A stretch of 64,000 nucleotides of DNA, taken from assembly GCF_002923755.1 (NCBI RefSeq), contig NZ_PGFZ01000002.1:314195-378194 (forward strand), in the 5' to 3' direction. Below the pieces are notes generated by a model. It was not told the DNA's origin and did no database searches. It saw nothing but the letters and a program-made list of their open reading frames with translations. The position numbers and the translations under genes were made by a program. Each line of letters starts with the position of its first letter. Within the stretch, counting starts at the first letter, position 1. Positions 41,463 through 43,190 of this stretch are shown piece by piece. The DNA comes from Methylovulum psychrotolerans. Lineage in GTDB: Bacteria > Pseudomonadota > Gammaproteobacteria > Methylococcales > Methylomonadaceae.

Positions 41463-41497
41463 AAGTTATTGTGTTTTTGTTAGGGTGAGGATTCATA

Positions 41498-42241
41498 ACC
41501 AATACAATCCCTACCGCAGGCGCGGCGGCAACAGCCCGCTATGACGACCAAGACCGTCTGCTCGATTACCCTTCGACAAGCTCAGGGCAGGCCTCTTTAT
41601 ACAGCTACACCGCCAACGGCGAGCTGCAAAGCAAGACCAAAAGCGGGCAAACCACCCAATACACCTACGATGTTTTGGGTAACCTCAAACACGTCACCTT
41701 GCCCGACACCACCGCCATCGGTTACCTTACTGACGGGCAAAACCGCCGTATCGGCAAAACCGTCAACGGCGTTCTGGTGCAGGGTTTCCTCTACCAAAAC
41801 CAGCTCAACCCCATCGCCGAACTGGACGGCAACAACCGGATCATCAGCCGCTTTGTCTATGGCGACAAAAGCAACATCCCGGCCTACTTCGTCAAAACAA
41901 ACCCCAGCACCCAAAACCAGACCACCTACCGCATCATCAGCGACCACCTAGGCAGCCCGCGTCTGGTTATCAACACTACTAACGGCAGTGTCGCCCAGCG
42001 CATCGACTATGATGTCTGGGGCAACATCACCCAAGACACCAACCCCGGCTTCCAGCCCTTCGGCTACGCGGGCGGCCTGTACGACCAACACACCAAACTT
42101 GTCCGCTTCGGCGCAAGGGATTATGATGCCGAAACCGGACGCTGGACGGCGAAAGACCCGATCGGGTTTGGGGGCGGCGACAGCAACCTTTATGGGTATG
42201 TGGTCGGGGATCCGGTTAATTGGGTGGATCCAAATGGATTG
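41498..42241 (+). repeat. Second copy of the RHS core segment
   Basis: Direct repeat of 38594-39319 with an 18-base in-frame expansion and scattered substitutions near the left end. It ends at the DPNGL codons, exactly where the two tips diverge. Confidence 0.9.
41569..41595 (+). repeat. REP-like CTTCGACAAGCTC element inserted in frame in the RHS tip
   Basis: The bases CCTTCGACAAGCTCAGGGCAGG replace the SGST codons of the intact copy with PSTSSGQASL, keeping the frame. This motif is a known REP-like dispersed sequence in many proteobacteria, and a related TTCGACAAGCTC occurs at 53917. It marks the tip copy as older or less constrained. Confidence 0.7.
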
Positions 42242-42620
42242 AATGCCGTCACTTTAGGGGCTAAAGCGGCCAGCTTAGCGGCTAAGGTGACCAGTAGTTT
42301 GGAAATAGTAAATCCTGTGGGCTTGACAATATTAGCAGGTGAAGTCGGCTATGGGGTTGGCTCGTTGATCTACGATACATGGGGCGATGAAATTGATGCG
42401 GCTGTGGAGCAGGTGTTTGGGTCGCCTATAGCATGTTCAGTAGATGATAGCGATGACAAAGAACATACAAAAAACAAGCGGCCTAGTTCAAAAGGAAAGC
42501 ATGAGAAAGGACGTTCTAGAACCCAAAAAGATAAAGGAGGCGAAAAAGGTGACAAACGACGGCCTTATCAGAGATAAATAGTGTCTAAAAATTTTTATTT
42601 TTCTATTGGGGTTAAATCGG

Positions 42621-43190
42621 ATGCCATTTAAACAAATTTTAGAATACGCAAAAATACATAATATTATTGTGTCGGCGTATGTTAATGCTAACGATTGGGG
42701 GCAATATTCTGTTGGATATGTAGATTCAATTACAAATGGACATGTTCGGTTGCGCACTCTTTCGAAGTATGGTGAAAATGCCGGATTTGAAATAAGGTTA
42801 TTATCGGATATTGTTAAAATTGAATATGATGGAAAATATGAAAAAAAAATTGAACTGTTAAACAAAAAACAAGGCAAGGTATTCAACGAAATAGACCCTA
42901 ACAAAATATCATCAGGTAATCTTTTTGAGGATGCCTTAAAGCAATCTTTAGAAGATTCCGTTGTAATCGTTATTTGGGGAAATGATCCTGATGATTCATT
43001 GGTAGGAATTGTCGAAAAGTTAGACTCGGAATTGATTAGCGTCCGTTTAGTCAATGAGTTTGGGGAAGATGACGGACTTTCCACAATTAAAATTGATGAA
43101 ATTAACAGCATTGATTTCAATACACAATCTGAACAAGTAAGAAGCTTTTTATATAAACACTCTGCGCTAATTCCTAATTCGATAGGTTGA
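42621..43190 (+). CDS. Immunity protein candidate of the second RHS tip
   Basis: 189 residues from the ATG at 42621, 44 bases after the tip stop; a TTG at 42606 is in frame but less likely. The sequence holds two similar beta-barrel-like units (YVNANDWGQYSVGYVDSI and then VIWGNDPDDSLVGIVEKL), each followed by LxxIVKI/IDEINSIDF. This looks like a duplicated Sm/SH3-like domain. There is no signal peptide. Position behind the tip is the reason for calling it immunity; the family is not recognised. Confidence 0.65.
   Translation: MPFKQILEYAKIHNIIVSAYVNANDWGQYSVGYVDSITNGHVRLRTLSKYGENAGFEIRLLSDIVKIEYDGKYEKKIELLNKKQGKVFNEIDPNKISSGNLFEDALKQSLEDSVVIVIWGNDPDDSLVGIVEKLDSELISVRLVNEFGEDDGLSTIKIDEINSIDFNTQSEQVRSFLYKHSALIPNSIG

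Follow-up and report, generated by a model that had tools for sequence, protein, structure and literature searches.

A stranded core-tip end with a candidate immunity gene behind a predicted teneurin-like RHS gene of Methylovulum psychrotolerans

Behind a large RHS gene of Methylovulum psychrotolerans, the product of which is, to judge by its domains, a bacterial teneurin-like protein and thus related to the teneurin nerve receptors of animals, lies an orphan second copy of the end of its shell (hereafter the core), which carries a C-terminal tip of its own and is followed by a partner gene. We consider it probable (about 0.65) that this orphan is the displaced core-tip end of a teneurin-like RHS protein, with a tip predicted to be a toxin and followed by its likely immunity gene, and that it probably is a recombinable spare. 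Rhs and cdi loci are known to contain orphan tips. Teneurin-like proteins have recently been described as polymorphic toxins accompanied by partner genes, and the discussion of that paper leaves undecided whether the shell was acquired separately from the end domain (PMC13018210). With its stranded piece of core and tip and its remnants of other tips, a teneurin-like locus of this kind would allow such exchange to be tested directly, and would show that partner genes persist longer than the tips that they served. The stretch of DNA analysed as a whole (64,000 nucleotides, henceforth referred to as the window) contains the features listed in Table 1, and the array has more layers than the orphan to which the original prediction was confined: tip 1 with imm1, immZ, and a third tip with imm3.

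Table 1. Features of the RHS array, with positions counted from the first letter of the window
Feature	Position	Strand	Basis or remarks
Large RHS gene	31589..39790	+	2733 aa; PKD repeats, TTR, FN-plug, NHL, YD-shell, tip 1; Pfam
Main core (first copy, end of shell)	38594..39316	+	alignment
Tip 1 (loaded), predicted toxin	39317..39790	+	RHS-type relatives
imm1, likely partner of tip 1	39790..40668	+	ATG overlaps stop of large gene; relatives paired in genome G222
immZ, immunity-like gene	40752..41462	+	hydrophobic N-terminus by eye; relatives behind HExxH tips
Orphan open frame	41489..42577	+	362 codons, no ATG
Orphan core (second copy, end of shell)	41498..42238	+	alignment; R/D/D kept, DPNG terminus
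Tip 2 (stranded), predicted toxin	42239..42577	+	end motif
imm2, immunity candidate of tip 2	42606..43190	+	TTG 42606 or ATG 42621; role by position only
Third tip, last part, truncated	43532..43711	+	no core before it; similar to a tip of genome G018
imm3, open gene	43798..44280	+	matches gene behind the G018 tip

The large gene matches the Pfam families TTR (PF25020, 1.7e-26), FN-plug (PF24329, 7.4e-8), NHL (PF25021, 5.1e-32) and YD-shell (PF25023, 4.8e-38), and the solved chains closest to its shell end are the teneurin-like 9pt5 and 9ifo, followed by animal teneurins and T6SS Rhs proteins. Teneurin-like proteins release their end domain by self-cleavage via the shell residues R2103, D2116 and D2140 (PMC13018210). 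With the numbering of chains 9pt5 and 9ifo taken to be that of the paper, as the fit suggests, the orphan core has R, D and D aligned at these positions and ends in DPNGL, and the main core has the same letters at the cleavage positions; the residues of the predicted self-cleavage site and the DPxG motif are kept in both cores. By eye, the N-terminus of the large protein is hydrophobic. The gene starts 655 bases behind a MazG-like gene, and no trace of it was seen within ~1.5 kb in 16 loci of the same genus that have the MazG-like gene (L133-L148; the fragment L149 was omitted), loci that end too early to show the next gene. An open frame on the minus strand at 62707-63672 appears, by eye, transposase-like.

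The main core at 38594-39315 and the orphan core at 41498-42237 are identical at 655 of 722 aligned positions (90.7%), and the orphan core has 18 extra bases that preserve the frame; at the protein level the identity is 89%, and the tblastn E value of 3e-147 speaks against chance. The figure of 726/744 bases in the original prediction fits two repeat lengths that are 18 bases apart, but is not the count of identical bases. The further claim that the repeat ends exactly where the tips diverge was borne out: the likeness stops at the DPNG codons, directly before 39317 and 42239, and tips 1 and 2 have no match to each other. The GC content falls from the core (57%) to the tips and partner genes (46% in tip 2 and 33% in imm2). 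The 18-base insert (41570-41588) contains TTCGACAAGCTCAGG, read in frame; genome-wide, TTCGACAAGCTCAGG occurs in 13 exact and nine one-mismatch copies, and a reversed control gave none. The original prediction had itself named an assembly duplicate as one of two findings that would refute its reading. We found no point in support of this explanation and give it practically no credence: 67 mismatches in 722 positions, the in-frame insert, differences with a codon structure (9, 9 and 32 at codon positions 1, 2 and 3, hence mostly at the third), unrelated tips, and two other open frames between the copies on one contig rule it out.

The differences between the cores are mainly silent. Over 213 codons there are 33 silent and 17 amino acid changes, which correspond to a dS of 0.27, a dN of 0.035 and a dN/dS of 0.13, whereas 70-76 amino acid changes would be expected had the orphan drifted freely since the split. 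A rough model that assumes equal branches and excludes gene conversion rules out, on this substitution pattern, a long silent drift of the orphan; at most about one-fifth to three-tenths of its separate history can have passed without selection. The low dN/dS indicates that the orphan core diverged under selection, probably while it was part of a full-length gene in a different lineage, and was probably stranded only late; the same low value would be expected if the orphan itself were in use. In a tree of 66 cores (cores shorter than 200 aa were dropped, as were 13 loci comprising seven copies of the window, four loci re-read at greater length and two of contig C34 of the same genome), the main and orphan cores are sisters with a support of 1.0, and together with the cores of G034, G126, a Methylobacter MAG and a Methylomonas isolate they form a wider group with a support of 0.915, a placement that makes a methanotroph of this kind the likely host. 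Eight of the 13 sources with several cores form single clades in this tree and five do not.

These results bear directly on whether the orphan is a mere relic, a functionless tip that was stranded by displacement and is decaying, so that only the immunity genes, if any, matter. We regard this as unlikely. Tip 2 and its core are open over 362 codons, and core coding has been kept over a dS of 0.27; a recent stranding would, however, give the same open and conserved look. The adjoining third tip is truncated and lacks a core, and the tip of immZ is gone, which shows that decay does occur at this locus. Also consistent with a relic, no variant in which tip 2 is fused to the large gene was seen among 311 genomes of the order (one per species), nor was any genome found with tip 2 on a full-length gene. 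The original prediction had taken the locus to show how specificity is changed, and a switch to tip 2 was not borne out by these genomes.

It had also held that the second copy lacks a start codon. Indeed, the orphan frame, which is preceded by a stop at 41486 and contains no internal stop, has no ATG, but TTG, GTG and CTG codons are present in it. The TTG at 41675, which is the start given in the list of open reading frames, has no Shine-Dalgarno-like match, and the TTG at 42299, within tip 2, has AGGTGA upstream. Translation from the latter would yield 92 aa, among them the conserved end motif. A rival reading is that the orphan is expressed as a short tip 2 product, initiated internally at a codon other than ATG and forming a toxin-antitoxin pair with imm2. 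In Salmonella, both main and orphan rhs tips have internal promoters and the orphan is made from a CTG (PMC7043789). Nevertheless, we consider an expressed short toxin quite improbable here. With 19 candidate codons, a single match of six bases is nothing unusual (by our estimate ~1 in 4), the promoter-like matches, one of which lies at 41443-41472, are not above chance (19 found in the region against 13.8 expected), and a long piece of shell would be useless to a short toxin.

The orphan's own toxin-like tail and the gene behind it, both claimed in the original prediction, are present. The last ~35 aa of tip 2 contain the motif HTKxxRPSxxxKHEKGxxRxxxDxGGEKGD, which is common to seven other proteins, five of them with PF25023 of the YD-shell family. 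As a whole, tip 2 has one relative, its closest at 48%, on a partial RHS protein. Neither tip 1 nor tip 2 nor the end motif matched an NCBIfam (E up to 1 for the tips) or Pfam (E up to 5) family, and the predicted model of tip 2 has a pLDDT of 44 and no fold. The imm2 gene has 194 codons and starts 28-43 bases behind tip 2; it likely pairs with tip 2 as its immunity gene, a candidate assignment made from its position. Its predicted model (pLDDT 92) consists of two similar halves with weak fold matches to Hfq (best E 5e-3, none at 1e-3), and imm2 is thus predicted to be built of tandem Sm/Hfq-like halves. Relatives of imm2 were found in 21 other proteins. Among the 311 genomes of the order the only one was that of the window itself, and among 369 genomes of the class there was one other. 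At locus L126 (genome G342) lies, at 5034-5483, the one imm2 relative with a visible context; it is split over two frames, and the 11 kb read there contain no RHS gene. A pairing of tip 2 with imm2 was seen at no other locus in these searches. On plasmids, tip 2 and imm2 had no match, and in viral contigs imm2 had no relative.

The other layers of the array point to tips that occur as exchangeable modules elsewhere, a view that their relatives support. Tip 1 resembles the ends of 50 long RHS-type proteins, including the 2838-aa P0045 with teneurin domains (the search was limited to proteins of 0.55 to 1.75 times the query length, and the 50 matches cover 42-100% of tip 1). In G222, a relative of tip 1 (61%) is directly followed by a relative of imm1 (34% over 122 aa, in a shorter frame); the array there (L128, 7295-9526) runs from a core through the tip 1-like end and the short imm1-like frame to a second core with a different tip. 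The third tip is 72% identical over 57 aa to a tip of G018, and imm3 is 47.5% identical over 160 aa to the gene behind that tip, in the same order. Behind imm3, at 44470-44907, lies an open frame of 145 codons, possibly a further layer; a search of 61 genomes gave no match to it in the other 60.

The immZ gene was found in four of the 311 genomes of the order, in one of which (G117) the match is only weak and partial. Three immZ relatives sit behind RHS ends that carry an HExxH motif, namely SHEAWH on contig C34 of the same genome, VHEGVH in G046 and THEYVH in G126. HExxH is absent from the three forward frames of 39317-41500 in the window. In G126 the HExxH tip is on a teneurin-like carrier; ahead of the repeat, the identity of this carrier is 49% over 867 aligned residues, and that of the immZ relative is 42%. 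On contig C34 (L116), the HExxH open frame is separate from the frame of the core fragment, and the core match contains one internal TAG. On contig C17 (L121), likewise of the same genome, an immZ relative lies behind a core fragment without a visible tip.

The orphan core-tip arrangement is widespread, and the window clearly exemplifies it, with a less usual protein as the chassis. A regular expression applied to the loci fetched for matching this core identified 20 loci (the window included) with at least two core ends on one strand, a count from which five copies of the window were dropped, in which L050 and L072 lie on one contig, and in which many loci are cut by contig ends. The core pairs at these loci share 53% to 100% amino acid identity, and the tips have no match to each other in 16 of the 20. 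At least one core end was present in 60 of the 116 core-matching loci. One of the loci, L018 from a gammaproteobacterial MAG, matches the families NHL, FN-plug and YD-shell, and its orphan core, a short one, stands at 81.7%.

How could such an array arise? In our preferred reading, in which the orphan is a displaced core-tip end, an incoming cassette of core, tip and immunity gene would recombine into the end of the shell and push the older tip downstream, where it would be left without a shell, an export signal and an ATG. Conversely, a crossover between the two cores would bring tip 2 onto the large protein. Unless a duplication of the locus came first, such a crossover would remove tip 1, imm1 and immZ in a stretch of ~2.9 kb (2904-2922 bases, the spacing of the repeats). 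Re-fusion of tip 2 to the large gene is suggested by analogy with the Salmonella case, for which Koskiniemi and colleagues (2014) gave evidence that the orphan fuses to the main gene via 522 bp with an identity of 95%; the locus is probably duplicated beforehand, since a simple crossover would lose the immunity gene of the main copy (PMC3967940). The identity of 90.7% at the present locus is lower than in Salmonella, and the crossover rate may therefore be low. Stranded tips would vanish faster than their partner genes, in which case the array may also serve as a store of immunity. Orphan modules with an active immunity gene and a tip that is not made have been described for cdi (PMC3150448). 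A wider proposal, which we put forward tentatively and at slightly short of even odds, is that teneurin-like proteins change their weapon by serial C-terminal displacement and that the locus acts as both armoury and immunity memory, which would explain separate histories of shell and end domain before acquisition by animals. Its contents, read jointly and with the same reserve, would then be one tip that is loaded, one spare that is complete and has a piece of shell to itself, a third tip that is broken, and two immunity genes that have survived longer than their tips.

The closest parallel for the orphan, which the original prediction had rightly likened to an RHS tip with a core repeat, is the orphan rhs-CT/rhsI of Salmonella Typhimurium LT2 (PMC3967940): it lies behind the main gene, shares a core with it, has no ordinary start and has a partner gene behind it. 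In LT2, fusion was shown by experiment over the shorter and more similar repeat given above, whereas here the repeat extends over 722 positions and no fusion was seen. With regard to the carrier, the locus resembles those described for bacterial teneurin-like proteins (Nat Commun 2026, PMC13018210) in its domain set, its cleavage residues, its variable end domain and the gene directly downstream. The loci presented in that paper, however, have one end domain and one partner gene each, whereas several layers are present here, and the words 'orphan' and 'recombination' are absent from its main text. Titles and abstract openings in the literature, in a search that covered few subscription papers and preprints, yielded no orphan tip array behind a teneurin-like gene. 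The arrays of T6SS immunity genes in Vibrio cholerae (PMC5361080) are similar in that immunity genes outlast a displaced effector, as immZ and imm3 appear to do here; the effectors there are different, and at the present locus a repeat of the shell core has also been left behind. The layout as a whole is like that of the dissociated rhs tips of Enterobacteriaceae, in which a full-length gene is followed by core fragments on the same strand with other, GC-poor tips, a drop in GC relative to the core having been described for rhs tips (PMC2935791). The core fragments of Serratia are 91.6% identical in amino acid sequence to the upstream core (PMC2935791), compared with 89% here. For these loci, Jackson and colleagues (2009) put forward a model in which circles carrying core and tip recombine into the core, displacing the old tip downstream (PMC2935791). 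In contrast to the Enterobacteriaceae rhs genes of that study, the carrier at the present locus is teneurin-like, with PKD, TTR, FN-plug and NHL domains, and lies outside the Enterobacteriaceae. Overall, the locus is an instance of the rhs C-terminal displacement known from Enterobacteriaceae, set on a teneurin-like chassis.
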